Source: a virus. Taken from it: a stretch of 23,594 nucleotides of DNA. This document shows, in pieces, positions 12,628-23,594 of the stretch (position 1 is its first letter; every line of letters starts with the position of its first letter). The DNA is taken from the IMG/VR virus record IMGVR_UViG_3300017730_002640, positions 1-23,594 of that record, one strand, 5' to 3'. The position numbers and the translations under genes are program-made. The notes beneath the pieces were generated by a model that saw only the letters and a list, made by a program, of their open reading frames with translations, searched no databases and was not told the origin of the DNA.

Positions 12628-13241
12628 AGCGATGCAATAGCCTCTTTATATTGTTCTTCGGTAAAGTTGGTATAGTGTGCATGTAGTCCTTTAAGACCAA
12701 AATGCTCTACGGTAGTCTTGTGGAACTTTGCACTAGGACAGAATGCTTTCACACGGTTCTCTAGCGTAGTCAAATCTACGGGGTCATATGCTGCCCATCC
12801 ATTAGCATTTACATGAACCGTGATATTCTGCATACCACTATCACTAATATATCTCAGTGCTTCCCATACAGAACCTTCATTACTCTCACCATCAGAGATC
12901 ATCACATGAACGTGACGGTTTGGATTACCGACAGCACGTCCTACTGCAACACAGATACCCATACCCAGACTACCAGTAGAGCAATGAATATGATCCAATT
13001 CGTTACGCTTTGGGTGCTCACCATACTTGTCAAGTAGTTCCTGAGCGTCCAGTCCATAGTATTCCTCAAGAATTACATAGAGTGCTACGACAGCGTGACC
13101 ATTGGACAGGATGAAGATATCATCTTCTTTCTTATTTTTATAGATGTCATCAATGATATGCAGACACGAAAAATAACTCCCAAGATGGTGGAGTTTATTT
13201 TCATAACAAATATCAAGGAGTCTACGATAAAGTTTGGTCAT
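12624..13241 (-). CDS. Transketolase-like thiamine-diphosphate-binding subunit (split transketolase, N half)
   Basis: From the ATG at 13241 the 205-residue protein has HHLGSYFSCLHII (18-30), ILSNGHAVVALY (44-55), CSTGSLGMGICVAVGRAVG (87-105) and the ThDP/Mg motif SDGESNEGSVWEA followed by VNANG (116-148). In place of the usual GDGE the motif reads SDGE, retaining Asp117 and Asn145/147. This is the PP domain in compact form (transketolases usually have about 270-330 residues here). The start was chosen because it makes the TGATG junction with the upstream gene; the longer frame begins with TTG. It should pair with the downstream Pyr subunit. Confidence 0.85.
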   Translation of the reverse strand: MTKLYRRLLDICYENKLHHLGSYFSCLHIIDDIYKNKKEDDIFILSNGHAVVALYVILEEYYGLDAQELLDKYGEHPKRNELDHIHCSTGSLGMGICVAVGRAVGNPNRHVHVMISDGESNEGSVWEALRYISDSGMQNITVHVNANGWAAYDPVDLTTLENRVKAFCPSAKFHKTTVEHFGLKGLHAHYTNFTEEQYKEAIASL

Positions 13242-13948
13242 CAATAAACGAGCATACAATCTGCTTGGAGTTTATCAACACTCTTTCCAAAACTTTTCAG
13301 TTTATCAGAAATCTTGTTGAAGTTCTCTGCCATCATACCACGTTCTTCAAAATCATGCACCTCTACATATAGTCCATCAATCTTAGTCAGTGCCTCTTCA
13401 AAAGAATCCTCAAAGATAATCTCATTTTCAAATCCCTCAATATCCATCTTAACAAATCCAACACGATCAATATCCAATGAATCAATAATACTATTAAGAG
13501 TTTTTGTTTTTACCTTAACAGTCTTACCACTATGAGGATCAGTTCTATGAGAGACGAAAGAATTCATCGTAGAATTACGTTCATGAATATTGAACTCTGC
13601 CTCACCATCCTCAGTACCAACAGCAAGATTAAGAGCCTCAATATTTTTAATTCCTGCAATACCAACCAGTTCGTTCAGAAGAGCAAAGTGTGAAGGAGTT
13701 GGTTCTACTGAGAATACCTTTTCACATATGGGAGCAACAAACATAGAAAATAATCCAATGTTTGCGCCCAAGTCAATCATATTGAGATCTTCATTTTCTT
13801 TTAGAAACCAATAGAAGTCAGTATTAAACTGTTTTAGAATATGAACCACGCAAGAGTGTTCTGCGAATGCATGATTTTTATAATTCTCTGATGACGAAAG
13901 ATCGATTTTATTGCCTGCGATATCAGAAAACGAAAGAAGGTCTGTCAT
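13241..13948 (-). CDS. FkbM-family SAM-dependent methyltransferase
   Basis: 235 residues with MIDLGANIGLFSMF (57-70), the glycine-rich SAM motif I, VFSVEP (78-83) with the acidic ribose-binding Glu, and GFVKMDIEGFENEIIF (164-179), the FkbM signature D-x-E-G. Family members O-methylate sugars or polyketides. In this operon it probably methylates a hydroxyl on the glycan. It overlaps the preceding glycosyltransferase by ATGA. A second FkbM-like gene lies at 17356. Confidence 0.9.
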   Translation of the reverse strand: MTDLLSFSDIAGNKIDLSSSENYKNHAFAEHSCVVHILKQFNTDFYWFLKENEDLNMIDLGANIGLFSMFVAPICEKVFSVEPTPSHFALLNELVGIAGIKNIEALNLAVGTEDGEAEFNIHERNSTMNSFVSHRTDPHSGKTVKVKTKTLNSIIDSLDIDRVGFVKMDIEGFENEIIFEDSFEEALTKIDGLYVEVHDFEERGMMAENFNKISDKLKSFGKSVDKLQADCMLVY

Positions 13949-14796
13949 GATGTTACTTTGTTGATGTATTGTAAGGGTTCTTCAGCGATCACGGTCTTCA
14001 TCCACTCACGAAGACCACCGTGTTCTTTATTTAGTTTTGCTGCTGCAGATCCTCCTGCCTGGTGCATAACTTTGATGCACATTGGATCTCCAGTCTTAGG
14101 ATCATCAAGATAGAGTGCATTATCTTTCACATAGATGTCAGACCAACTCTCCCAGTGATTATTATTCTCTCCCCAAGTATTACAAAGTCCATAGGAAACT
14201 CCTGTTCCCATGGCATCAATAATCTTTGTTGAGTATTTTCCACAATGGAAGATTTGATTCAAGGTATCCTGCTCATCACCAATCCCATGAGCATATGGAT
14301 TTACCTCATCCTTGATTCTCTTTGCTTCTCTATTCAATTCATGCCAATCATACCAGAACTGTTTGTTATTTGAAGCAATCAAACCAGCATTAATAAACTT
14401 CTGTACTGGAATTTTTTCTCCATTACCAAAGGGTGGCAGGTGATGAATGGTAATGCCAGGATGAGAACTTGCCTTGTCCAATGAGTTGTTATTACGGACT
14501 CCGATAATATCCTCATCACTCTCAAAGAGTTCAGTCATAGGACCAGTTACAACACAGTCACCATCAATATGAACAACCATATCATAATCATCAATGTAAG
14601 GCATACAACTAGGTGGCATCATCCATACGTTGTTCAACCAAGAGTCTTTTACCTTTGCCACATCAGTCATCTTTGAATCAAATACAAAGAAATCTACATC
14701 TGGATGAAAATACTTGAATGAATTTCTAAGTTCATCTAATCCAATATAATCAATATAGTCATCTGTACACCAAGTTGTTACAGCAATTTTTTTCAT
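13945..14796 (-). CDS. GT-A glycosyltransferase with DxD motif
   Basis: The 283-residue protein has a Rossmann-like N-terminus (KKIAVTTWCTDDYIDYIGLD), then YDMVVHIDGDCVVTGPM (71-87) with a DxD metal/nucleotide site at Asp78-Asp80. This is the layout of GT8/GT34-like retaining transferases. FINAGLIASNN and GDEQDTLNQIF are typical of the acceptor-side and second catalytic regions of that clan. I cannot assign a donor sugar. The neighbouring methyltransferases suggest the transferred residue is modified afterwards. Confidence 0.75.
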   Translation of the reverse strand: MKKIAVTTWCTDDYIDYIGLDELRNSFKYFHPDVDFFVFDSKMTDVAKVKDSWLNNVWMMPPSCMPYIDDYDMVVHIDGDCVVTGPMTELFESDEDIIGVRNNNSLDKASSHPGITIHHLPPFGNGEKIPVQKFINAGLIASNNKQFWYDWHELNREAKRIKDEVNPYAHGIGDEQDTLNQIFHCGKYSTKIIDAMGTGVSYGLCNTWGENNNHWESWSDIYVKDNALYLDDPKTGDPMCIKVMHQAGGSAAAKLNKEHGGLREWMKTVIAEEPLQYINKVTS

Positions 14797-15281
14797 TTGT
14801 CTCCCATGGCCATAAATGAGTTGTTTAAATCAATACCAGATACAAAAATATTTTCATATCCACGTTCAAACATGTAAGCCTCAATAATTTTAGGAGTAAG
14901 TACATGCTTATGCTTTCTATTGTTCCAAGGTCTCCAATAGACCTGACTAAAGTCGGGTAGATATAAAAACAAGGTTCCTTCCTTCTTGAGATTATCATAC
15001 CAATAATCCATAGTCGCAACCCAATCAGATACGTGCTCTAAGCAATGACTAGAGAAAATGTAATCTACTTGAACTGGTGGTAGATTATCAGCATCCCATG
15101 GATCATCAAAGTCAAGATCAATAGGTGTAGCACCAGGAAATGCCCACTCTGGTTTCATACAACCAATATCATATCCAACTCCACTACAAACATGTTTTGC
15201 AAAAGGAATTGCAAATTGTGATGCATTCCCTTCTGTTTGAAACTTTGGATACCAGTTTTTCTTATACTCTACTACTTGCAT
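14793..15281 (-). CDS. Small class I SAM-dependent methyltransferase
   Basis: At 162 residues it is a compact Methyltransf_11-type fold. VGYDIGCMKPEWAFPGATPI (35-54) replaces the usual D-x-G-x-G-x-G with DIGCMKPE. DYIFSSHCLEHV (73-84) is the strand 4/motif II with the His-x-x-Glu-His typical of Methyltransf_11, and LFLYLP follows as strand 5. The unusual motif I leaves the exact substrate and efficiency unclear. Its translation is coupled to the following glycosyltransferase through an ATGA overlap. Confidence 0.75.
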   Translation of the reverse strand: MQVVEYKKNWYPKFQTEGNASQFAIPFAKHVCSGVGYDIGCMKPEWAFPGATPIDLDFDDPWDADNLPPVQVDYIFSSHCLEHVSDWVATMDYWYDNLKKEGTLFLYLPDFSQVYWRPWNNRKHKHVLTPKIIEAYMFERGYENIFVSGIDLNNSFMAMGDK

Positions 15282-15976
15282 ATCAATTTATGTGGGGTAC
15301 TGAATAAGTAATCAATCTCGGTCATATTCTTTTCGTTATGTGCAACAACCACATAATTTTCATAAGAGGTGTCTAAGACATCAATAATATAGTTGAGTGA
15401 TGTATTGATTGTATAAACACTCTTTGCCTTCTCAAAAACTTTACACCAATCAAACAAAGTATATCCGTCAATGTATTGTAGTTCTACAGAGGGTAAGTTG
15501 TAATTTTCTGGACGCATCAGTTCACAATTTCTTCCTTCATTATAAAGGTTGTTGATAAACACGAACTCGGAGTCGTCCTTGAGACCAAGTACATTATAAT
15601 ACAGATCGTCTTCTTTAGCAAAGTCACGATCAAATTTAAACCAATCCTTCCAATCAGAGTAATCAAGTCCCAACATAGAATATTTTGAACTCATAATCTT
15701 ACCATCATTATGAGTCATATCAGCAGTTGCCATACTGATAAATGCTGCATTTTCCTCTACAACAGCACCTGCACCATGTTCATAGATATCTTTCATTGGA
15801 AAGTCATCTGTTGTCATGGGAAACCAGATATCTTTAATATAGTTTTGAATCCATTGAATATCGGGTTTCAGGGGCCAGACAACATCATACCCCTTCATCA
15901 TCATTACCCTAGCAATCTTTTGACAAAAGAAAACATCACCAATTCCTGCAGGTTGTTTAATTAAACAGGGTCTCAT
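15272..15976 (-). CDS. GT9-like (ADP-heptose:LPS heptosyltransferase-type) glycosyltransferase
   Basis: 234 residues opening IKQPAGIGDVFFCQKIARVM (6-25), the G-x-G-D loop of GT-B heptosyltransferase-like proteins. SVYTINTSLNYIIDVL near the C-terminus occupies the place of the donor-site element that in GT9 enzymes reads like D-T/S-G-x-x-H-L-A. It is shorter than WaaC/WaaF (about 320-350), so the match is partial and the donor is unproven. A link to the HldE-like kinase and nucleotidyltransferase in the same operon is suggestive only. Confidence 0.6.
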   Translation of the reverse strand: MRPCLIKQPAGIGDVFFCQKIARVMMMKGYDVVWPLKPDIQWIQNYIKDIWFPMTTDDFPMKDIYEHGAGAVVEENAAFISMATADMTHNDGKIMSSKYSMLGLDYSDWKDWFKFDRDFAKEDDLYYNVLGLKDDSEFVFINNLYNEGRNCELMRPENYNLPSVELQYIDGYTLFDWCKVFEKAKSVYTINTSLNYIIDVLDTSYENYVVVAHNEKNMTEIDYLFSTPHKLICK

Positions 15977-16512
15977 ACGTATGCTACAAGGATATAATCA
16001 TCAACAGGATTGATAGACTTATAATAGGTGAACTGATAGTCAGGGTTGATACCACGAATCTTATCCATCAGTTGATCTTCTCTGCCAGAGAAATAGATGG
16101 GAATGTCGTCAATAACAATTGTATGATCCTTGATAGGGTGATCCTTAATCATATCAAGTTCTTCCATAGTTGGTACACCACCACCTTCAGCGTGTGCATC
16201 CAACCAGAAGATAGCCTTCTGATCAACTTTCTTTAGGATTTCTTTTACACAATCTCTAGAGTCACCCAACCAAAGATTAACATTATCATCATCCTTAAAT
16301 TTCTCCAGACAAATATTATATCTTTCCTCAGACAATTCACAACTGAAGATCTCTTCAAAACCAAGATCAACTGCATATTTAACAGCATCTCCCATATAGG
16401 TTCCAGTTTCAACAAAGTGCTTACAATCTTTGCCGATACCAAAGTCCTTAAAGATATAATAGAAAGAATGGATTCCTTCTTTAAGTGCCTTCTCAAATAC
16501 TTCTCTAGTCAT
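15973..16512 (-). CDS. TylF/macrocin-type or class I SAM-dependent methyltransferase
   Basis: 179 residues with FVETGTYMGDAVKYA (33-47), in which E-T-G-T-Y-x-G-D is the SAM motif I of this group, and SCELSEERYNIC (57-68) with Glu59 binding the ribose. IFWLDAHAEGGG (101-112) contains Asp105 and His107, and TIVIDDIPIY (131-140) provides the acidic pair for metal-dependent O-methylation as in TylF. It probably methylates a sugar hydroxyl. It overlaps the upstream GT10 gene by 8 bases. Confidence 0.75.
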   Translation of the reverse strand: MTREVFEKALKEGIHSFYYIFKDFGIGKDCKHFVETGTYMGDAVKYAVDLGFEEIFSCELSEERYNICLEKFKDDDNVNLWLGDSRDCVKEILKKVDQKAIFWLDAHAEGGGVPTMEELDMIKDHPIKDHTIVIDDIPIYFSGREDQLMDKIRGINPDYQFTYYKSINPVDDYILVAYV

Positions 16513-17359
16513 TTTGTTCTCCGTTAAAATAATTTTCCCAAATGAAGTCTTCCAATACTTCCATTTTCAATGCTCGTTCAAAGTTGTCTTTGATTGCATC
16601 CATTTTATCATTATAAAGTTCTTCAGTCAAAGACTCAATATCAAATCCATCCTCTAGGATAATCATACCATCAGTGTTGAACCATTTTCCAACAGAAGAG
16701 GTGCCATGATAAATTGGAACTGTTCCTGTTAAAAAACAATCCAAAAGTTTTTCACTGAAATACTCATTGTTGTTTTCAATAGCAACCGAGAACATATAGT
16801 CTGCGAGTGCTTCTTCTTTGTATTCAATCTCATTAAATCCACGACCAAACAAAGGAGCATACTCTTTTAACTGGTCAAGCATATGTAGTCTCTGTTGATG
16901 ACCAGGAAGATGAGACTTGTTTGATGCCAGAATAGAAATCAATTTATTCTTTGGATAAATCTGAGGTTCACGAATCCAAGATCCGTTTCCAGGAACCCAA
17001 CAAATTCTTTCATGAAGATCACATAGTTCTTCACTCCAAGTAAAAATTTTATCATATTCATCCATATAGGTATCAAGATTATTCTTGATCTCCTGAATGA
17101 GAGGTTCAACTATCCAACAACATTCTAGAATGATACCATATTTTTTCTTACTAGAGGAATCCTGCAGGCCTGCAGGAATAAATCTATCAATATAAAAAGT
17201 CTCATCATCTGTTGTGAGACCATTAAATGTTTGTTGTTGTCTACCCTCACCTTCATGAACCCATTTAATATACTTTGATTCTTTTCCGTGAGTCGTATAC
17301 CCCTTATTTCCATTCGTGAGATGAATAAAGGTATCATTCAACAATTTAAAATTTTTCAT
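16505..17359 (-). CDS. GT10-family fucosyltransferase-like glycosyltransferase
   Basis: The diagnostic GT10 C-terminal motif is present: NNNEYFSEKLLDCFLTGTVP (196-215), continuing into IYHGTSSVGKWFN. This is the donor-binding F-x-S-E-K-x-x-x-x-F-x-x-G-x-x-P block of alpha-1,3/4-fucosyltransferases. SILASNKSHLPGHQQR (142-157) and FGRGFN (171-176) correspond to the upstream S-N-x-R and G-R elements. The donor is expected to be GDP-L-fucose or a mimic such as GDP-L-galactose. An 18-bp palindrome lies in its N-terminal coding part (17160-17177). Confidence 0.85.
   Translation of the reverse strand: MKNFKLLNDTFIHLTNGNKGYTTHGKESKYIKWVHEGEGRQQQTFNGLTTDDETFYIDRFIPAGLQDSSSKKKYGIILECCWIVEPLIQEIKNNLDTYMDEYDKIFTWSEELCDLHERICWVPGNGSWIREPQIYPKNKLISILASNKSHLPGHQQRLHMLDQLKEYAPLFGRGFNEIEYKEEALADYMFSVAIENNNEYFSEKLLDCFLTGTVPIYHGTSSVGKWFNTDGMIILEDGFDIESLTEELYNDKMDAIKDNFERALKMEVLEDFIWENYFNGEQND
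17160..17177. repeat. 18-bp GC-rich perfect palindrome inside the GT10 gene
   Basis: TCCTGCAGGCCTGCAGGA is identical to its reverse complement and lies in AT-rich coding sequence, where the minus strand encodes IPAGLQD. It contains two overlapping CCTGCAGG octamers joined by AGGCCT. It could be chance, a regulatory site or a remnant of an insertion. Confidence 0.6.
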
Positions 17360-18093
17360 TTCAGCAAATACTTTTCTTTGTTAAATGGGTTCAGTTCTCT
17401 ATCATTTCTCAAGAAAATAGAGTCACCCCATCCTTCTTGTTGATAAGAATCTGACATTTCAGCAAGTTTAAATCCCCTTTCAGTCAACCATTGTGAGATA
17501 AATTCATGAGGAGCACCTGTATTGTTTCTATCATTCAAAGAAGTTTCAATAAAGATCATATTGATATATTTTAGATGATCTTCAAAACCCTTTAGAATTT
17601 CAAGTTCTGCTCCCTCTGCATCAATATTCAAGAAATCATACTGATCCATATCAATATTATTTTCTTCAATCAAAGTAGATAGTTTCTTAGTTACAACAGT
17701 AGCATAACTACCACCCGCAAGTTTTCTTGACAGATGATCAGAGTATGCTACTGGGTTTAGAGTTGAACAATCATTAGCAAGAAAGAATTGTTTTTCTAGA
17801 CCATCCTCACTATACACACATTCATTAAAAGAAAGGTATCCACATCTATCAGCAACTGGTTTTGACATAGTATCAAAGACAAATTTATTTGCCTCAACGC
17901 CGATAACTTTATTTCCAACTAATTTGCTATAGCAGTAATGCTCCACAAAGTCCCAAAGACCAACGTGAATGATACCTTTGACATCAACGTTTAGTCTTTC
18001 AAAACTACCAACATAATTTATATTATCATGAAGAGGATGTGGATGAAATCCAGTCTCCTTATCATAAGAAGCGTAAGGTCCTAATTTACTCAT
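17356..18093 (-). CDS. FkbM-like methyltransferase with degenerate SAM motif I
   Basis: From the ATG at 18093 (ATGA overlap with the epimerase stop; the longer frame starts with TTG) the protein has 245 residues. VIGVEANKFVFDTM (63-76) and DFLNIDAEGAELEILKGFED (153-172) are strong FkbM matches. Motif I, however, reads GIIHVGLWDFVEHYCY (40-55) where related FkbM proteins have a Gly-Ala-x-x-Gly-x-Glu pattern. Loss of the second glycine could weaken SAM binding or indicate a subfamily. Likely role: O-methylation of a glycan sugar. Confidence 0.8.
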   Translation of the reverse strand: MSKLGPYASYDKETGFHPHPLHDNINYVGSFERLNVDVKGIIHVGLWDFVEHYCYSKLVGNKVIGVEANKFVFDTMSKPVADRCGYLSFNECVYSEDGLEKQFFLANDCSTLNPVAYSDHLSRKLAGGSYATVVTKKLSTLIEENNIDMDQYDFLNIDAEGAELEILKGFEDHLKYINMIFIETSLNDRNNTGAPHEFISQWLTERGFKLAEMSDSYQQEGWGDSIFLRNDRELNPFNKEKYLLK

Positions 18094-19205
18094 ACTGAAT
18101 GATGAAATGGAGCATATGGTTCTGAACTTTGAATTTGAGATTGAATCCAATAATAGGTGTAACGAAAACCTTCCTTATGAGTCATTTGAAAATCCCAATT
18201 TAACTTTTCACGAATCAAATCATTGTTAGAGTTACGACCACGAACACCTAGAGGTCCATCAATATGAATTTTAGAAACTTCTTTTTCTGCAACTTCAGCC
18301 GCAATATCTACAAGTTGATTAATAGTAACCATCTCTTCAGAACCAATATTCACAGGACCCATAAAGTCACTGTCCATCATTCTTCTAGTTGCTTCAATGC
18401 ATTCATCAACGAACAAGAAGGAACGAGTTTGTAACCCATCTCCCCACACCTCGATTGCTCCACCTGACTCCGGGAGGTAAGCGACCTTACGGCAGATTGC
18501 AGCTGGTGCCTTCTCTCTTCCACCGTCCCAGGTTCCTTCGGGACCAAAGATGTTGTGATACCTAGCAACCCGAACAGGGATGCCATGGTTACGATTGTAA
18601 GCAAAGTAGAGACGCTCACTGAAAAGTTTCTCCCATCCATACTCGGAGTCTGGTTCTGCTGGGTACGCATCATTTTCCCTCAGTCCAGGATTGTTTGTTT
18701 CTTCTTGAGCATACTCAGGATACATGCATGCTGATCCAGAGTAGAAAATCTTAGTAGGTTGATCTAGTGAAGGACGAACACATGCAGTTCCATTCTCTTC
18801 ACCATCAAAAGTTTCATTCAGTTGACGAACTTCTTCAAGGACATTCAAGTTGATAGACACTGAGTTGTGCATGATGTCTGCATCATTCTCACCAGTAAAT
18901 ACAAATCCTGCTCCACCCATATCAGCAGCAAACTGATAGATCTCATCAAAAGGACGGATACAGCGATAAGGAACAGAGTTATAAAAATTACCTTGTTCAC
19001 CTTTGAACTGGATGACACGACGCACAAAAGTTACATCACGCAAGTCACCTTGTACAAACTCATTTGCATGGGTATTTGAAAATTCTGGGTACTTAAGATC
19101 AACACCACGTACCCAGTAACCTTCAGAGCGGAGACGTTTGACCATATGACTTCCAATGAAACCACCAGCACCAAGCACCAGTGCTGTCTTCTTATATTCA
19201 GACAT
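18090..19205 (-). CDS. GDP-mannose 3,5-epimerase homologue
   Basis: The 371-residue SDR enzyme matches plant GDP-mannose 3,5-epimerase along most of its length: NAD loop LGAGGFIGSH (11-20), AADMGGAGF (93-101), SGSACMYPE (156-164), YGWEK (189-193), GPEGTWDGGREKAPAAICRK (221-240), WGDGLQTRSFLFVDECIE (254-271), GPLGVRGRNSNNDLIREKL (317-335). The catalytic set is intact: Cys160 and Lys232 for C3/C5 proton exchange, and Ser158, Tyr189 and Lys193. The plant enzyme makes GDP-L-galactose and GDP-L-gulose from GDP-mannose. Two insertions, near 67-88 and 131-150, distinguish the phage protein. The product could feed the GT10/GT11 transferases (inference). Confidence 0.92.
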   Translation of the reverse strand: MSEYKKTALVLGAGGFIGSHMVKRLRSEGYWVRGVDLKYPEFSNTHANEFVQGDLRDVTFVRRVIQFKGEQGNFYNSVPYRCIRPFDEIYQFAADMGGAGFVFTGENDADIMHNSVSINLNVLEEVRQLNETFDGEENGTACVRPSLDQPTKIFYSGSACMYPEYAQEETNNPGLRENDAYPAEPDSEYGWEKLFSERLYFAYNRNHGIPVRVARYHNIFGPEGTWDGGREKAPAAICRKVAYLPESGGAIEVWGDGLQTRSFLFVDECIEATRRMMDSDFMGPVNIGSEEMVTINQLVDIAAEVAEKEVSKIHIDGPLGVRGRNSNNDLIREKLNWDFQMTHKEGFRYTYYWIQSQIQSSEPYAPFHHSV

Positions 19206-19229
19206 TATGTAAAAAGTTTCTTCTTATAT

Positions 19230-19258
19230 ATGATACGATTATTTTGACAGTTTGTCAA
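19230..19258 (-). promoter_or_regulatory. Internal sigma-70 promoter before the GDP-mannose epimerase gene
   Basis: TTGACA (19258-19253), a 17-base spacer and TATCAT (19235-19230) on the minus strand. The predicted start near 19223 gives an 18-base leader to the ATG at 19205. The -35 lies in the last codons of rmlB and is half of a perfect inverted repeat (TTGACA, AAC, TGTCAA; 19244-19258). The 33-base gap here is the largest between genes in the sugar operon. Confidence 0.65.
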
Positions 19259-20180
19259 TATACCACTGAACAGTATCTCCCAGTCCATCACTAAAATTAA
19301 TAGATGGAGTCCAACCTGTTGCAGATGTTAGTTTTGAAAAGTCTGTTCCATATCTTTTATCCTGGCCAGGTCTGTCATATGAAACACCAATCAACTCATG
19401 AGATTTATCAAGTAGGTCAAGAATCATTTTAGTTACTTCAATGTTTTGCAACTCACATCCTGCTCCTACATTAAATTTATCATTCAATACTTTCTTTTCC
19501 TCAATGGACCAGATTGCACTACAGTGATCCATTACATGAATCCAATCTCGAATTTGTTCCCCACCATCATACATGTAAGTTACTTTATCTTCCATGGCGT
19601 TCTTAATTACTTTAGGAATAAGTTTCTCAAAGTGCTGACCCCTACCATAATTATTAGAGGATCCTGTAATTACATATGGAAGTCCATAGGTATTGTGCCA
19701 ACTAGTTACAAAATGTTCTGCTGATGCTTTAGTTGCAGAGTAAGGATTTCTAGGATTATATGGTGTGTCCTCTCTGAAAAGGGAGTCATCATATTCAAGA
19801 GAACCATAGACTTCATCAGTAGAAATATGGTGAAACTTTTCTACTTGTACCTTGAGGCTGGCATTAAGAAGGTTGATTGTTCCATTAATATTTGTAGAAA
19901 TGAAAGGGTTGGAATTAGATATTGATTTATCAACATGACTTTCAGCAGCAAAGTGAAAGACTTTCTTTGGTTTATGTTTATCAAAAATATAATTTACATG
20001 CTTTTCATTAACAATATCACACCAGACAAATTCAATCTGAGGACACTGAGGAATATTCTCTTCATTTGATGCATAAGTTAAACTATCAAGAACAATAATT
20101 TTATCATCTGTAACATCACGCAAAAACTCAAGGAAGTTACTTCCAATAAATCCTGCACCACCAGTAACGATAATAGACAT
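19239..20180 (-). CDS. rfbB: dTDP-glucose 4,6-dehydratase
   Basis: The 313-residue protein has the full RmlB signature: VTGGAGFIGSN (5-15), FHFAAESHVDKS (75-86), ISTDEVYG (119-126; Thr121, Asp122, Glu123), the Tyr147/Lys151 pair (YSATK), TGSSNNYG (172-179), QIRDWIHVMDH (209-219) and RPGQDKRYGTD (270-280). It converts dTDP-glucose to dTDP-4-keto-6-deoxyglucose, the branch point to rhamnose and other 6-deoxysugars. RmlC and RmlD are not clearly present; the double nucleotidyltransferase might replace RmlA and one of the SDRs RmlD. It is the first gene of the sugar operon. Confidence 0.93.
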   Translation of the reverse strand: MSIIVTGGAGFIGSNFLEFLRDVTDDKIIVLDSLTYASNEENIPQCPQIEFVWCDIVNEKHVNYIFDKHKPKKVFHFAAESHVDKSISNSNPFISTNINGTINLLNASLKVQVEKFHHISTDEVYGSLEYDDSLFREDTPYNPRNPYSATKASAEHFVTSWHNTYGLPYVITGSSNNYGRGQHFEKLIPKVIKNAMEDKVTYMYDGGEQIRDWIHVMDHCSAIWSIEEKKVLNDKFNVGAGCELQNIEVTKMILDLLDKSHELIGVSYDRPGQDKRYGTDFSKLTSATGWTPSINFSDGLGDTVQWYIDKLSK

Positions 20181-20193
20181 ATACTTTTTTTAA

Positions 20194-20222
20194 ATGATAC
20201 TAAAAAAGACCCTTAATGTCAA
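20194..20222 (-). promoter_or_regulatory. Sigma-70 promoter of the sugar operon, overlapping a terminator
   Basis: TTGACA (20222-20217), exactly 17 bases, then TATCAT (20199-20194) on the minus strand. The -35 is in the loop and stem of the preceding terminator hairpin and the spacer includes its U-tract. The predicted start near 20187 lies only about 7 bases from the ATG of rmlB at 20180, so the transcript would be nearly leaderless, and no Shine-Dalgarno sequence is seen. Confidence 0.7.
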
Positions 20223-20230
20223 GGGTCTTT
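20202..20230 (-). terminator. Rho-independent terminator
   Basis: On the minus strand AAAGACCCTT, loop GACATT, AAGGGTCTTT forms a perfect 10-bp stem followed by an unbroken T-run (six in all, 20207-20202). It ends transcription from the coiled-coil gene 45 bases upstream and insulates the sugar operon from the early small genes. Confidence 0.85.
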
Positions 20231-20274
20231 GGGTCGCCATGCACGCCACTTGCTTTTAGGAAGCAAGAAACCAA

Positions 20275-20466
20275 TTAGCTCCAGAGTTGGTTGATTCTAG
20301 TCTCCATCTCTATAAACCTTGCATCAACTTCTTGTTGTGCTTTATCGCTTGCTTCAAGCGCAGCAACTTTTGCTTCTAGTGCTTGAAGTCTTGCCTCAAC
20401 CTCAACATCATATTTTGACATTGATGCACCAGATGCAGATTTACCTGCTTTTCCTTGAGTTGACAT
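20275..20466 (-). CDS. Short coiled-coil protein of unknown function
   Basis: 63 residues. After a Gly/Ser/Lys-rich start (STQGKAGKSASGAS), residues 20-60 form a heptad pattern with Leu, Val and Ile at core positions (LQALEAKVAALEASDKAQQE and onward), so the protein probably oligomerises. No membrane span or known domain. It is followed by a strong terminator and preceded by a late-like motif, so it appears to be its own transcript. A small virion or scaffold component is possible but unproven. Confidence 0.65.
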   Translation of the reverse strand: MSTQGKAGKSASGASMSKYDVEVEARLQALEAKVAALEASDKAQQEVDARFIEMETRINQLWS

Positions 20467-20490
20467 AATAGTAAAAATTAACTCTTTGAT

Positions 20491-20498
20491 TATTTAGT
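20491..20498 (-). promoter_or_regulatory. Possible late-like promoter motif for the coiled-coil gene
   Basis: Minus strand ACTAAATA differs at one fixed position from the NATAAATA late motif of T4-like cyanophages. It sits 25 bases before the ATG at 20466, close to where a -10 element should be. Weak support from sequence alone. Confidence 0.35.
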
Positions 20499-20524
20499 TT
20501 TAAGAGGGTCTAATGACTCCACCA

Positions 20525-20543
20525 CTTAGTTTTACGAACTAAG
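20525..20543 (-). other. 7-bp hairpin over the stop codon of the 93-residue gene
   Basis: CTTAGTT, loop CGTAA, AACTAAG on the minus strand is a perfect stem that contains the TAG stop of the upstream gene. No U-tract follows, so it is more likely an mRNA 3' structure than a terminator. Confidence 0.4.
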
Positions 20544-20820
20544 AAACGCGAGATACCGAGTCTGTAACATAACAAGGAACACCATCTGGATCTAACCATT
20601 TAGGATATTCTGGGTCTTCAATAGCAAGAAGCATTTGATCGCCATTGTCAAACAAATAAACATCTGAGTATTTTTTAGTATACTCATTTGCTTTTTGCAT
20701 ACGAAAGTCTGGTTTACCATTCAGTTGAATGTAACCTCTTTGAACGAACCGATAGGGAAATCGTTCGTGGATTACAATAGTCTTAGTAGACTCAACTGAC
20801 TTAGGATCTAAATCATTCAT
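20539..20820 (-). CDS. Hypothetical protein, 93 residues
   Basis: I do not recognise a family. The protein is mixed alpha/beta and soluble, with HERFPYRFVQRGYIQLNGKP in the N-terminal half and YLFDNGDQMLLAIEDPEYPK in the second half; the aromatic and charged content suggests a small globular fold. It begins with an ATGA overlap with the upstream 70-residue gene, so both are translated from the same transcript, driven by the promoter at 21052. Position among early-type small genes suggests a host-takeover or accessory protein. Confidence 0.65.
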   Translation of the reverse strand: MNDLDPKSVESTKTIVIHERFPYRFVQRGYIQLNGKPDFRMQKANEYTKKYSDVYLFDNGDQMLLAIEDPEYPKWLDPDGVPCYVTDSVSRVS

Positions 20821-21029
20821 GCTTCTACCGTTTCAAGATCAATTGCGACTTGCTCGATCAAGATGTCATAATCATCAAGTGGATCACCAGAAAATACTAC
20901 ACCATTGTTCTCGTAATAACGACGAACCTTTTTGAGAAGTTTCGGATTCTTCACATCCAGGAAGAAATCTCCATTTACAGCACCGCGAAGGGTTTGAATG
21001 TCTTTCTTGAACTTTGTAGTCAGTGTCAT
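20817..21029 (-). CDS. Hypothetical protein, 70 residues
   Basis: A small soluble protein with a basic N-terminal half (KFKKDIQTLRG, KNPKLLKKVRRYYENNG) and an acidic C-terminal half (DPLDDYDILIEQVAIDLETV). This charge split is suited to nucleic-acid or protein contact. No known domain. It is the first gene after a consensus sigma-70 promoter with a leader of about 16 bases. Its stop overlaps the next ATG (ATGA). Confidence 0.7.
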   Translation of the reverse strand: MTLTTKFKKDIQTLRGAVNGDFFLDVKNPKLLKKVRRYYENNGVVFSGDPLDDYDILIEQVAIDLETVEA

Positions 21030-21051
21030 TGTCTTGATTGTTGACCTTGTT

Positions 21052-21081
21052 ATTATACACGACAGGTAGAGAACCTGTCAA
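21052..21081 (-). promoter_or_regulatory. Consensus sigma-70 (early-type) promoter
   Basis: TTGACA (21081-21076), 18-base spacer, TATAAT (21057-21052) on the minus strand: both hexamers are perfect. It lies directly after the 3' end of tRNA-Met and 22 bases before the ATG at 21029. The -35 is partly inside the inverted repeat GACAGGT, TCTCT, ACCTGTC (21061-21079), so the spacer can form a 7-bp hairpin. Confidence 0.8.
21061..21079 (-). repeat. 7-bp inverted repeat after tRNA-Met, within the promoter
   Basis: GACAGGT and ACCTGTC flank a 5-base loop. The stem lies three bases past the tRNA 3' end and could serve as a tRNA trailer structure, a weak terminator (no U-tract) or an operator for the promoter it overlaps. 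Confidence 0.5.
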
Positions 21082-21154
21082 TGGGGGTCGCGAGGATTGA
21101 ACTCGCCTTAGCCGAATTATGAGTTCGGTGCATTCACCAGATTGCTAGACCCCC
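21082..21154 (-). tRNA. tRNA-Met (CAT), elongator type
   Basis: 73 bases. Acceptor GGGGGTC/GACCCCC, D-stem GCA/TGC, anticodon stem CCGAA/TTCGG around CTCATAA (anticodon CAT), T-stem GCGAG/CTCGC with TTCAATC, discriminator A, no encoded CCA. The anticodon stem lacks the three G-C pairs of initiator tRNA. The C4-G69, C5-G68 and U12-A23 pairs used by TilS to convert CAT tRNAs to Ile are absent, which favours elongator Met over Ile2. It lies 3 bases after tRNA-Ile. Confidence 0.88.
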
Positions 21155-21157
21155 TAA

Positions 21158-21229
21158 TAGGACTGCTGGGAATTGAACCCAGTTTACCCCGTTATAAGCA
21201 GAGAGCATTAACCAATATGCGACAGTCCC
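21158..21229 (-). tRNA. tRNA-Ile (TAT)
   Basis: 72 bases. Acceptor GGGACTG/CAGTCCT (one G-U), D-stem GCAT/ATGC, anticodon stem CTCTG/CGGGG around CTTATAA (anticodon TAT, reading AUA), T-stem CTGGG/CCCAG with TTCAATT, discriminator A, no CCA. The TAT anticodon is rare in bacteria, which normally read AUA with a lysidine-modified CAT tRNA. Its 5' end directly follows the stop codon of the antitoxin-like gene. Confidence 0.88.
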
Positions 21230-21403
21230 TCAGGGTCCTTCGTTGTTCTGTTCAGTGTATATGCGTATGAGTTCATCATCCGCTGGCATCATCACTGCTC
21301 TCTCGCCGTTTTTATTTTCCACTCCTATTGATTCACCATTCTCTACTTTATTCATCAACTCTTCCCAATTCTCTTGCCAGTATTCCACCGAATAAAATTC
21401 CAT
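21230..21403 (-). CDS. Phd/YefM-like antitoxin, 57 residues
   Basis: The short protein starts MEFYSVEYWQENWEELMNKV and contains VENGESIGV (20-28), then NGERAVMMPADDEL (32-45). This follows the Phd/YefM N-terminal DNA-binding pattern: a strand, a helix with N-L/W-x-E-L-x-x-x-V-E-N-G-E, a hairpin and A-V-x-x-P. It lacks the C-terminal toxin-binding tail of full antitoxins (about 80-90 residues). No toxin gene is next to it; purC precedes it and tRNAs follow. It may repress transcription or neutralise a host toxin. All three isoleucines use AUA. Its TGA ends exactly where tRNA-Ile begins. Confidence 0.75.
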   Translation of the reverse strand: MEFYSVEYWQENWEELMNKVENGESIGVENKNGERAVMMPADDELIRIYTEQNNEGP

Positions 21404-21423
21404 AGTTGTCTTATGTATAAACT

Positions 21424-22113
21424 TTATAAAAACGATTGCAACTTATTTAAGATAATCTGGTATGCCGGTACTATATCACCTTCATCCATTCTAAACAAGT
21501 CCTTGTCGTATCTTTCCATATCATTCTTACCCCATAACCTCATTGAATCGGGCGAAATCTCATCTGCAAGATATAGATCGCCATGAGCATCAATGCCAAA
21601 CTCAATCTTAAAATCAATCAAATCAAATCCAATGAGGTTAAAGATATTGATTAGATAATCATTAATCATTAATGTTTGTTCCTTGAGAGGAGTAGGGTCA
21701 TATCCCATTAGCCTCACCCTATCCCAGGTAAGCAATGGATCATGTTTTGAATCATCCTTTAGAAAAAACTCAACAATAGCAGGAATAATTGGTTGACCCT
21801 CTTTAATTGTAGTGGTCCTTACAATAGAACCTGCTGCTCTGTTCCTACAGATGACCTCTAAAGGAATAATGTCAACTTTCCTACAAAGCATCTTATTGGG
21901 ACCAATCTGCCTATGGTAATGAGTTTTGACACCAAGAAATTCTAGTTTGTCAAAAAGAATGGAAGATATTTGACAGCATAATGATCCCTTACCTGCTGGG
22001 TAGTCTTCTTTCTCACCATTACCAGCAGTTACTTTATCATGATACTCAATCAAAACTTCCTCGGGATTTTCAGTACCAAATACAGTTTTGACTTTTCCCT
22101 CCACAATCTTCAT
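21424..22113 (-). CDS. purC: Phosphoribosylaminoimidazole-succinocarboxamide synthase (SAICAR synthase)
   Basis: 229 residues matching PurC throughout: GKVKTVFGTEN (6-16) in the ATP loop, DKVTAGNGEK (26-35), VICRNRAAGSIVR (87-99), LIDFKIEFG (165-173), LADEISPDSMRLW (182-194) and the MERYDKDLFR segment (199-208). It makes SAICAR from CAIR, aspartate and ATP in purine synthesis. It is a known auxiliary metabolic gene of marine T4-like cyanophages, thought to raise nucleotide supply during infection. Its own promoter lies at 22138-22166 with an 18-base leader. Confidence 0.96.
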   Translation of the reverse strand: MKIVEGKVKTVFGTENPEEVLIEYHDKVTAGNGEKEDYPAGKGSLCCQISSILFDKLEFLGVKTHYHRQIGPNKMLCRKVDIIPLEVICRNRAAGSIVRTTTIKEGQPIIPAIVEFFLKDDSKHDPLLTWDRVRLMGYDPTPLKEQTLMINDYLINIFNLIGFDLIDFKIEFGIDAHGDLYLADEISPDSMRLWGKNDMERYDKDLFRMDEGDIVPAYQIILNKLQSFL

Positions 22114-22137
22114 AATGAATATTATACAGTATTTTTA

Positions 22138-22166
22138 ATTATAGCACTATGGGTTTCTAGGGTCAA
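22138..22166 (-). promoter_or_regulatory. Sigma-70 promoter of purC, extended -10
   Basis: TTGACC (22166-22161), 17-base spacer and TATAAT (22143-22138) preceded by TGC, an extended -10. The -35 is inside the coding end of the preceding small gene. Predicted start near 22131, 18 bases before the purC ATG. It likely also drives the antitoxin-like gene and the two tRNAs downstream. Confidence 0.75.
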
Positions 22167-22311
22167 GTCCCATATCATTAAGATATTCTGTCCACCAGTC
22201 TGGATCTCGTTTACACTTCCAATCAGGAACGGGTAAATTATGAAGCGAATACCACTCATTAATCGCTTCATCGATAATCTGTGCGATCTGTAAATTCTTC
22301 TTCCTCTTCAT
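22147..22311 (-). CDS. Hypothetical protein, about 54 residues
   Basis: The distinctive part is IIDEAINEWYSLHNLPVPDW and a Trp- and Asp-rich tail (DPDWWTEYLNDMGLDPRNP). The frame extends upstream, but the stretch before MKRKKNLQ overlaps the membrane-protein gene in another frame. I therefore favour the ATG at 22311 (22323 and 22374 are alternatives; the longest frame opens with TTG). It overlaps the previous gene by 44 bases. No family recognised. Confidence 0.55.
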   Translation of the reverse strand: MKRKKNLQIAQIIDEAINEWYSLHNLPVPDWKCKRDPDWWTEYLNDMGLDPRNP

Positions 22312-22477
22312 CAACGTCTTCATATGGGTTTGCCACATAAGGTCCGTGAGGTTTTCTGGATTCTGATTTAACATACTTTTGTTCGTTATTGACTGCTGCA
22401 ATCCACAAACTAAGTTTCATTATAATCCATATTATTCCTATTGGTAAAAAACATGCAAATAGGATTAGTGGTTTCAT
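22268..22477 (-). CDS. Small single-span membrane protein with acidic tail
   Basis: 69 residues. Residues 3-27 (PLILFACFLPIGIIWIIMKL and onward) form one transmembrane helix at the N-terminus. The rest is polar and ends in a Glu/Asp-rich stretch (PYEDVDEEEEEFTDRTDYR). Start ATG overlaps the upstream TGA as ATGA. Unknown function; an inner-membrane accessory protein is likely. Confidence 0.6.
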   Translation of the reverse strand: MKPLILFACFLPIGIIWIIMKLSLWIAAVNNEQKYVKSESRKPHGPYVANPYEDVDEEEEEFTDRTDYR

Positions 22478-22728
22478 GATAGTAATACTTGGAAGATTTC
22501 CCCCTTCACTCTATCTATAACTTCTTGAATGATGTTTACATCAATCCCCATAAAGGGAGGGATCATTCCAATAACGCGAAAAAATCCATCCACAAAAAGT
22601 GCCAAAAACATAATACCTAAAAATGTACTAATGATTGACGCATTACGATTGTGTTGACGAATCGCATTATCAATCATTTTCTGACACTCTTCTTTTGTTA
22701 CATGGTGTACAGGTTTTATTTCACTCAT
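22474..22728 (-). CDS. Small membrane protein, one transmembrane helix
   Basis: From the ATG at 22728 it has 84 residues: a soluble N-terminus (SEIKPVHHVTKEECQKMIDN), a hydrophobic segment (about 31-58, SIISTFLGIMFLALFVDGFF) and an amphipathic C-terminus (IIQEVIDRVKGEIFQVLLS). The upstream ATG at 22740 adds four residues and cannot be excluded. It lies in a run of small genes with overlapping ends. No family recognised. Confidence 0.6.
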   Translation of the reverse strand: MSEIKPVHHVTKEECQKMIDNAIRQHNRNASIISTFLGIMFLALFVDGFFRVIGMIPPFMGIDVNIIQEVIDRVKGEIFQVLLS

Positions 22729-22876
22729 CCTGTGAGGCATTTGGAATATTATTCATGGGGTCTGGTTCTCCCCGAACTATAGCACAAGCTCGCTTATAGT
22801 AATAGTTATCGGTGGTATTGTTTGTTTCAAAGGTTTCTTTAATTGTTAACCAGTTCTGATAATCGTCGGGATGCAT
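22721..22876 (-). CDS. Hypothetical protein, 51-64 residues
   Basis: The core reads MHPDDYQNWLTIKETFETNN, then YYYKRACAIVRGEPDPMNNI. It is soluble, with a helix-rich start and Asp/Pro-rich end. I place the start at the ATG at 22876; a TTG at 22915 would add 13 residues and overlap the zinc-ribbon gene by 14 bases, which suits the tight packing here. Function unknown. Confidence 0.55.
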   Translation of the reverse strand: MHPDDYQNWLTIKETFETNNTTDNYYYKRACAIVRGEPDPMNNIPNASQDE

Positions 22877-22901
22877 GATGGTAGAGAGATTGCCTACATT
22901 A

Positions 22902-23150
22902 CTATTTAACTTCAAAGTCTAGTCTACGAACTTTACGTCTACGTCTTTCTTCTTGGTAGATAAGTTCTTGACTAGAGAAGTGACTATCAATCTTTCTCTC
23001 CACATTATTAGTTACCATTACAATTTTATTCAAGTCTTTGGCACCAATTTTATCATCCACAATACTCATTTGATTGGGACAACCACAGAACTGAACTTTG
23101 CTAGTGCTCGTCAATTCTTTTCTACACTCTTTGCATCTGATAGTAATCAT
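22902..23150 (-). CDS. Small Cys-rich zinc-ribbon-like protein
   Basis: 82 residues. CKEC (6-9) and CGC (22-24) give a C-x2-C-x12-C-x-C pattern able to bind one zinc ion, followed by a helical region and a very basic stretch (EERRRRKVRR, 67-76). The combination suggests nucleic-acid or polymerase binding, but no known family is identified. ATG at 23150 lies 22 bases after tRNA-Val. Confidence 0.65.
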   Translation of the reverse strand: MITIRCKECRKELTSTSKVQFCGCPNQMSIVDDKIGAKDLNKIVMVTNNVERKIDSHFSSQELIYQEERRRRKVRRLDFEVK

Positions 23151-23172
23151 TAGGCATACATTGAATTCGACA

Positions 23173-23244
23173 TGCTCGAAGAGGGGATCGAACCCCCGAC
23201 AATCTCCGTGTAAAGGAGGTGCTCTACCGCTGAGCTATTCGAGC
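23173..23244 (-). tRNA. tRNA-Val (TAC)
   Basis: 72 bases. Acceptor GCTCGAA/TTCGAGC, D-stem GCTC/GAGC, anticodon loop TTTACAC (anticodon TAC), T-loop TTCGATC, discriminator A, no CCA. The anticodon stem CCTCC/GGAGA has a C-A mismatch at its outer pair (27-43), and the T-stem has one G-U pair. Confidence 0.92.
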
Positions 23245-23247
23245 GTA

Positions 23248-23320
23248 CTCCTCCACCTGGACTCGAACCAGGGACAACAGAATTAACAGTTCCGCGCTCT
23301 ACCAACTGAGCTATAGAGGA
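23248..23320 (-). tRNA. tRNA-Asn (GTT)
   Basis: 73 bases. Acceptor TCCTCTA/TGGAGGA, D-stem GCTC/GAGC, anticodon stem CGGAA/TTCTG around CTGTTAA (anticodon GTT), T-stem CCTGG/CCAGG with TTCGAGT, discriminator G as usual for Asn, no CCA. Its first 10 bases overlap the end of the preceding protein gene (stop at 23313-23311). tRNA-Val follows after 3 bases. Confidence 0.93.
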
Positions 23321-23505
23321 TTGTCATACTCTTTCTTCGTTTTAAAGTAGAGTTTATAATATCTCTTCTTCATTTCATTGAGAGTATCCATATCATCTTG
23401 AAACCCCATGTATTTACACATTTGGGATGATCCTTCCAACTCACTAATCAATCTTAGTATACTGACAGGATGTCTTTCAAGTCCTCCAAAATCATACTGA
23501 GACAT
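23311..23505 (-). CDS. Hypothetical protein, 64 residues, overlapping tRNA-Asn
   Basis: The product (MSQYDFGGLERHPVSILRLI and onward, ending KTKKEYDNPL) is soluble and helix-rich with a basic C-terminal region (MKKRYYKLYFKTKK). No family is recognised. The last codons and the TAG lie inside the 5' part of tRNA-Asn: the tRNA begins at the third base of the last Asn codon. It begins 17 bases after tRNA-Gly, so it is probably read from a common tRNA-containing transcript. Confidence 0.6.
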   Translation of the reverse strand: MSQYDFGGLERHPVSILRLISELEGSSQMCKYMGFQDDMDTLNEMKKRYYKLYFKTKKEYDNPL

Positions 23506-23522
23506 AATAATAGTTTGGAGAA

Positions 23523-23593
23523 AGCGGAATACCAGAATCGAACTGGTGACGAAAGGTTGGAAACCTTTAGTTTTGCCTCTAAACTAATTCCGC
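23523..23593 (-). tRNA. tRNA-Gly (TCC)
   Basis: 71 bases, complete one base from the window edge. Acceptor GCGGAAT/ATTCCGC, D-stem GTTT/AAAC, anticodon stem AAAGG/CCTTT around TTTCCAA (anticodon TCC), T-stem ACCAG/CTGGT with TTCGATT, discriminator T as usual for Gly, no CCA. Confidence 0.93.
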
Positions 23594-23594
23594 A

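Follow-up and report, generated by a model that had tools for sequence, protein, structure and literature searches.

Can the end of one transcription unit and the start of the next be written on the same bases of a phage genome? This question is raised by positions 20194-20230 of a complete IMG/VR fragment of 23,594 bases, of the T4-like cyanophage type (hereafter the window, to which all positions refer). An earlier note on this DNA had described there a promoter nested in a terminator ahead of an rmlB-like gene, and had seen in it a device that insulates and initiates at once. The observation of the sequence was confirmed and its interpretation as a whole is partly supported. As read from the sequences, the arrangement is not private to the rmlB operon; it belongs to a junction that recurs in cyanophages together with the wcaG RNA, and represents the downstream half of this junction.

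Terminator and promoter on common bases

The features of the locus are collected in Table 1. The terminator including its U tract spans 20230-20202 and the nested promoter 20222-20194. Folded alone, the hairpin AAAGACCCTTG-ACAT-TAAGGGTCTTT (20230-20205, minus strand) gave -13.6 kcal/mol and a z of -4.2; five hairpins were folded, of which that of locus L686 was given shortened coordinates and folded poorly. With a G+C-containing stem, a U tract and compensatory stem changes, 20230-20202 has the make-up of an intrinsic terminator, and hexamers at 16-18 bases that are conserved jointly while their neighbours change have that of a sigma70-type promoter. TTGACA-17-TATCAT agrees with the consensus at 11 of 12 positions, TATCAT alone at five of six. 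The loop had been equated with the -35 element, which is right for ACA, whereas TTG tops the 5' arm; the U tract does lie within the 17-base spacer as proposed. Both signals fit because a 3' arm of about 9 bases, six to eight Us and one to three further bases add up to the sigma70 spacer of 17.

Table 1. Features of the window around the overlap of terminator and promoter, in the direction of transcription
Feature	Position	Strand	Remarks
CTAAATA late-type promoter motif	20497-20491	-	ATG of the 63-aa ORF follows after 24 bases
63-aa ORF, phrog_35121, no assigned function	20466-20275	-	unit ended by the terminator
wcaG RNA (Rfam RF01761), collapsed remnant	20312-20235	-	reduced to a single hairpin module; shares bases with the end of the 63-aa ORF
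Terminator hairpin	20230-20205	-	11 pairs including one G-U, 4-base loop; covariation in relatives
-35 TTGACA	20222-20217	-	5' arm (TTG) and loop (ACA)
U tract (U6)	20207-20202	-	inside the promoter spacer
-10 TATCAT	20199-20194	-	17 bases from the -35
Predicted leader AAAGTAT, 7 bases	20187-20181	-	+1 = A20187, from the -10 spacing
rmlB-like NAD-dependent sugar dehydratase, 313 aa	20180-19239	-	PF16363, PF01370; apparent inserted cassette
Second promoter TTGACA-17-TATCAT	19258-19230	-	for the next gene; conserved
Epimerase-family gene MSEYKKTALVLGAGG	19205-18090	-	heads the junction in phages in which rmlB is not inserted

Within the window, TTGACA-17-TATNAT with at most one mismatch was found nine times against 1.9 expected. 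Terminator-like sites in 13000-23594 (four against 5.0 by chance) are not in excess, so that the scan of a single window is no proof of a terminator; this proof comes from the comparative evidence. A further sigma70-like promoter, with 12 of 12 matches, is present at 21081-21052 (minus strand), just below tRNA-Met and ahead of a 70-aa ORF (21029-20817); an inverted repeat, GACAGGT/ACCTGTC, spans its -35 and part of its spacer and is not followed by a U tract.

Six relatives of rmlB were found in IMG/VR (L005-L010). The element is kept in L005-L007, L009 and L010, and in L008 as far as the contig reaches. In L009 and L010, GACGG/CCGTC replaces GACCC/GGGTC in the stem, and no difference is seen in TTGACA, the U tract, the spacing or TATCAT. 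Paired substitutions in a stem whose -35 stays constant are expected under joint selection on the RNA hairpin and on the promoter, and the claim that both signals use common bases thus gained support from the relatives.

The distribution of the design was followed by scanning viral contigs with the pattern TTGACA-N9-TTTTT-N3-TATNAT, which gave at least 120 stretches, with 115 distinct sites among the matches listed. A terminator-like hairpin overlaps the -35 in 39 of these 115 listed sites, against 2 of 93 with a scrambled -35 and 6 of 96 with a scrambled -10; by reading, four of the latter six hairpins carry a real TATTAT displaced by one or two bases, so that this control is if anything too high. 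With the same pattern, bacterial and archaeal contigs have the hairpin at 5 of 119 sites. Contigs were called cyanophage-like if at least half of their tested ORFs match 11 cyanophage genomes, and such contigs hold 28 of the 39 hairpin sites among the matches listed in comparison to 17 of the 76 sites without hairpin. In the 11 cyanophage genomes themselves, 15 of 455 strict terminators contain a nested promoter at a level of at least 10/12, where 200 permuted hexamer pairs gave a mean of 1.33 and a largest value of 9; the 9/12 level is weaker (20 of 464; permutations with a mean of 4.45, largest 14). None of 38 strict terminators of T4 contains a nested promoter, and for unselected terminators the frequency is 3 of 356 in other viral contigs and 1 of 450 in bacterial stretches. 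On these unselected rates and on the cyanophage share of the hairpin sites a phage-wide claim was dropped. The putative nested design is a cyanophage speciality with scattered other cases, not a general phage property. Examples from isolates are found ahead of hli03 in S-SM2 and S-PM2, and in P-HM1 the nested element directly follows gp23, the major head gene.

The wcaG RNA and the recurrent junction

Weinberg et al. (2010, PMC2864571) listed the wcaG motif among riboswitch candidates, with exopolysaccharide or high-light genes as its typical apparent targets, and the accessible parts of later cyanophage papers repeat a cis-regulatory role. Published descriptions of wcaG name no ligand in the portions available, nor do these portions of Weinberg et al. 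and of later cyanophage papers on wcaG mention an adjoining terminator or promoter, both words being absent from the main text of the two later papers. The order of elements at the junction is small gene, wcaG RNA, terminator, nested promoter and usually a sugar gene. Compared with the motif, the copy in the window has lost one of two similar hairpin modules and for this reason stays under the gathering score of 42, at 30.5 bits (E 0.0074); it is a remnant, not a member. L007, whose rmlB is 96% identical, has a wcaG of the full-length type that is cut at its 5' side by the contig end (69.5 bits), and of 10 loci tested seven besides L007 carry wcaG at 90-101 bits. Altogether 18 records were searched, with a match in 13 and a score above the cut-off in 11. 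The RNA seems to have collapsed from two modules to one in the window, L005, L006, L009 and L010, not in L007; terminator and promoter remain intact in the collapsed relatives.

Viral contigs were scanned once with a pattern for the wcaG 3' end that is independent of what follows, giving 120 matches. After removal of 46 without the 5' half of the last wcaG hairpin (partly chance matches, partly wcaG forms missed by the text filter), of two with fewer than 90 nt downstream and of five duplicates, 67 distinct, true-looking ends were left. A terminator follows within 6-19 bases in 62 of them; as background, such a terminator was met at 3 of 632 points chosen at random and after 30 of 980 long frames. 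At 47 of the 67 ends the promoter is nested, the hairpin containing a -35 of the TTG type and the spacer measuring 17 (46 ends) or 18 (one end), and at three more the terminator is directly followed by the late-type motif. The 20 ends without a nested promoter by this rule are explained in some cases by its greediness and are true absences in others. A few sites were misfiled by rule and the counts left unchanged: L022 and L062, with a nested TATCAT at 17, were entered as '-10 only', L636 and L651 were not recognised as having a terminator despite TTG-17-TATAAT, and L663 was counted as early despite CTAAATA after its terminator. The succession of wcaG, terminator and immediate CTAAATA or ATAAATA, with no sigma70 promoter, was seen at L663, L704, L665, L723, L692 and S-SCSM1 107286.

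Nine isolates with wcaG were inspected by eye. The promoter is nested in S-SM2, Bellamy and SynMITS9220M01, where wcaG ends at 143532, 157933 and 147730, respectively; S-SCSM1 has a terminator and CTAAATA after wcaG, S-B05 and S-RIM2 have a terminator alone, and in S-IOM18 the terminator is followed by a tRNA. No terminator directly follows wcaG in the other two, Syn9 and S-PM2, and Syn9 has a plain promoter below its wcaG, which occupies 163184-163278. A mapped transcriptome of Syn9 has reportedly been published.

Sufficient sequence on the upstream side was present at 63 loci, and at 62 of these an ORF has its stop at -113 to +65 relative to the 5' end of wcaG. A sigma70-like site of at least 10/12 is present in the 150 nt upstream of wcaG in only one of 63 loci, against 6 of 56 control stretches. 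The late motif was found in this 150-nt stretch in none of 65 loci; it occurs 150-300 nt upstream in 18 of 63, i.e. around the start of the small gene. In the 11 cyanophage genomes an ORF starts shortly downstream of 155 of 286 forward copies of CTAAATA, compared to 10 of 286 reversed copies, and from T4 biology we infer that CTAAATA is a late promoter. A riboswitch in a 5' UTR would be located below the promoter of the gene that it regulates. Here the predicted nested promoter lies downstream of the wcaG RNA in most cyanophage cases examined, and a candidate site above it was seen at the single locus just mentioned; in these phages wcaG has the appearance of an element at the 3' end of the unit before it, not of a 5'-UTR riboswitch.

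The promoters at wcaG junctions come in two grades. The commonest -35 is TTGCAT (27 sites), followed by TTGACA (11), and these two match only at the first three positions. TATAAT is the -10 in 32 of 32 TTGC-type sites but in one of 13 TTGAC-type sites, the other 12 having a weaker -10; this linkage (Fisher 4.5e-10, a nominal value since the rows are related) gives independent support to the hexamers acting as one promoter. Both grades precede the MSDYKK/MSEYKK family (L661, L669, L671 and L687 versus L680, L713, L734 and L035), and the stems covary in both classes. Alignment A3 (14 rows) comprises 11 of the 13 TTGAC members (L651 and L732 omitted) together with the window, L009 and L129, L007 being omitted; 98.1% of its cells are paired, and 18 cells are changed on both sides in comparison to 6.6 (sd 1.6) after shuffling, a value reached in 0 of 500 shuffles. 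TTGACA is present in 14 of 14 rows, which had been picked as members of the TTGACA class. For alignment A1 (27 rows, drawn from the 32 TTGC-class members with near-duplicates removed by eye) the values are 95.2% paired cells and 36 double changes against 9.0 (sd 2.4), again with 0 of 500 shuffles.

The apparent rmlB cassette and its predicted leader

At the junction of L680, which lacks rmlB, the sequence runs GTATCAT-ATATAAGAAGAAACTTTTT...ATGTCTGAATATAA. In the window a leader and gene start of the L680 type follow a second GTATCAT (19236-19230), and rmlB is situated between the two GTATCAT copies. The gene appears to have entered an older junction, splitting its -10 from its leader, and with this insertion would have come the short A-rich leader of 7-8 bases. 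The TTGACA of the second promoter is part of the rmlB codons Y-I-D, and its -10 and leader correspond to those of the junction without insertion. This TTGACA is kept in all six relatives, which could be explained by constraint on the protein, but conservation extends to the -10 and the leader, which are non-coding. Transcription of a 27-gene operon had been ascribed to the nested promoter. By reading of the ORF list, 27 ORFs do run in one direction between 20180 and 570; given the second conserved promoter, however, the other 26 need not depend on the nested one.

The predicted +1, A20187, falls within an A-tract (20185-20191) and is in agreement with a start about 7 bases from the rmlB ATG as expected beforehand; it was placed from the -10 spacing. 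The position of manA RNA (RF01745) fits the predicted +1 of nested promoters: in three of four records with manA it begins 5-8 bases below the nested -10. These manA starts near the predicted +1 are located in P-HM1 (112709-112740), P-SSM2 (142801-142837) and AG-345-F15 (about 59120-59155).

'Leaderless-type' is too strong a term for rmlB. Leaderless mRNAs have a 5' UTR of about 0 to 5 bases; the predicted leader has 7 bases here and 7-8 in the relatives, which would make the gene short-leadered. A distant rmlB in L738 (157 of 313 positions identical) starts 8 bases below its predicted +1. At 88 nested promoters with a downstream ORF the predicted leaders mostly measure 12-26 bases; 9 of the 88 have at most 10, including rmlB (7-8) and a few of 0-3 in other phages. 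The lack of a ribosome-binding site is ordinary here, because by a loose rule an SD-like motif is present at 21 of the 88 promoters and absent from 67. In two non-cyanophage contigs, L063 and L098, exactly six bases separate the nested -10 from the ATG, as would be expected of mRNAs that are truly leaderless.

Proposed transcription at the boundary and comparison with known systems

Both parts of the element exist, covary and recur downstream of wcaG, as shown at the level of sequence. That the terminator stops, that the promoter fires and in which phase each does so is what we infer from there. Most probably, the 37 bases are a boundary element at which a late-type unit is terminated and a host-sigma70, early-type promoter starts the sugar-gene region. 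The late-type unit would consist of the CTAAATA promoter, the 63-aa gene and, at its 3' end, the wcaG-derived RNA, and would be halted by the intrinsic terminator. Host polymerase would then start the sugar-gene region from the nested promoter, with its -35 in the top of the hairpin, a 17-base spacer provided by 3' arm and U tract, and the -10 directly behind. The rmlB cassette would have been inserted later just behind this -10, which created the short leader and rebuilt a second promoter for the next gene.

The assumption that transcription is stopped exactly where it begins anew does not hold: the RNA is likely released at about 20202-20199, and the predicted +1 at about 20187 lies some 15-20 bases beyond. 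A polymerase stopped at the terminator therefore covers the promoter. For such a polymerase hand-over, occlusion and neutral insulation are all possible, and of the proposed coupling of insulation and initiation the overlap is real and the insulation may also mean occlusion or hand-over.

Hand-over could take the form of a host RNA polymerase that, once halted in the U tract, is retained on the DNA and initiates again from the promoter it covers, so that late transcription feeds the sugar genes. We regard this as unlikely. Retention on DNA after intrinsic termination and re-initiation nearby have been reported in vitro (PMC6978380, PMC6978322, as far as these papers were accessible), the efficiency is expected to depend on the distance between terminator and promoter, which is here about the minimum possible, and the class with a weak -35 and a perfect -10 would suit a polymerase already at hand; if so, the relaxed -35 of the TTGCAT class may reflect that the enzyme need not come from solution. 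On the other hand, such a relay is not known for this geometry, sense re-initiation was rare in one of these studies (PMC6978322, in the part available), the same geometry could yield occlusion, and the terminated polymerase would need sigma70 while the phage late sigma is active. An extended version, in which the wcaG RNA tunes RNA release and, at rmlB, slippage in A7-A8 adds non-templated As, seems improbable to us; slippage could there produce a variable poly(A) leader that replaces the ribosome-binding site.

Equally improbable is that wcaG acts as a riboswitch with the terminator as its expression platform, the sugar genes being expressed mainly by regulated read-through and the nested promoter being minor or basal. 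The motif was published as a candidate of this kind (PMC2864571, in the text available), and an aptamer followed by a terminator within 6-19 bases resembles a transcription-attenuation design. However, a search for antiterminator pairing between wcaG and the terminator gave no signal above swapped controls (-9.63 for the arm of the same locus versus -9.12 for swapped arms, sd 2.59, n=49). The stems differ freely in sequence although the neighbouring wcaG is strongly conserved, the predicted fold of the window forms wcaG remnant and terminator simultaneously, and the window retains terminator and promoter despite its collapsed wcaG. A shape-dependent, non-exclusive wcaG switch is possible. Finally, a plain terminator whose -35-like loop is due to chance or favoured at the RNA level, with the sugar genes transcribed otherwise, is very improbable and already largely refuted: TTGACA-like loops with no good -10 do exist (S-SM2 46771, S-RIM2), but hairpins are enriched over both scrambled controls among the matches listed, nested promoters exceed all permutations in the 11 cyanophages, the spacing is fixed at 17 and -35 and -10 are linked.

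For the boundary element favoured here, several consequences would follow. The search for a function of wcaG, a riboswitch candidate in 5' UTRs since 2010, would shift to transcript 3' ends and termination. The element would represent a natural, evolved minimum of the terminator-promoter distance, for which either the strongest re-initiation or the most severe occlusion is expected. In a compact genome the end of one unit and the start of the next could be accommodated in so few bases, since a short 3' arm and a U tract together are as long as a sigma70 spacer, and a gene cassette could enter just behind the -10 with both neighbours keeping a promoter.

The nested promoter resembles the early promoters of T4-type phages, which are of the TTGACA-17-TATNAT type and expected to be read by host sigma70 polymerase; it differs by its location inside a terminator hairpin, a situation met at none of the strict T4 terminators. 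Promoters near terminators may be fed by terminated polymerase according to the studies on polymerase recycling (Kang 2020, Harden 2020), whose accessible parts cover in vitro work and surveys of E. coli and B. subtilis and describe no dedicated nested element. For these two bacteria a survey of terminator-promoter distances exists (PMC11347151, available in part). In the accessible open-access literature on promoters overlapping terminators we found no description of a promoter nested in a terminator in this way.

The wcaG motif (RF01761) as published shares with the present junctions the marine cyanophage setting and the exopolysaccharide or high-light genes downstream, and in most relatives the nested element is directly preceded by this conserved RNA of two hairpins. 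The accessible description places it in potential 5' UTRs, whereas here the promoter of the downstream gene lies below it with the terminator between. Two structured cyanophage RNAs from the same survey, manA and PhotoRC-II, also differ from wcaG: in three genomes the start of manA lies near a nested promoter's +1, and PhotoRC-II mostly follows a promoter-like site. By its predicted position manA is in a genuine leader, and wcaG is on the other side of the promoter. PhotoRC-II (RF01717) was present in 12 of 14 records searched, upstream of a gene described as psbA. A few dozen bases above it, several genomes have a promoter-like site fused to a TAAATA late-type motif (e.g. TATACTAAATA), as if early and late promoters overlapped.

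Adjacent or overlapping pairs of terminator and promoter in bacteria and phages likewise combine the end of a unit and the next start in a short stretch. At frd/ampC of E. coli the terminator lies below the promoter, and Kayvirus p98 is described, in the part of the source available, only as immediately after t97. The nested element is distinguished from these by a -35 within the hairpin, by a U tract that serves as the spacer and by its repetition across many stems.
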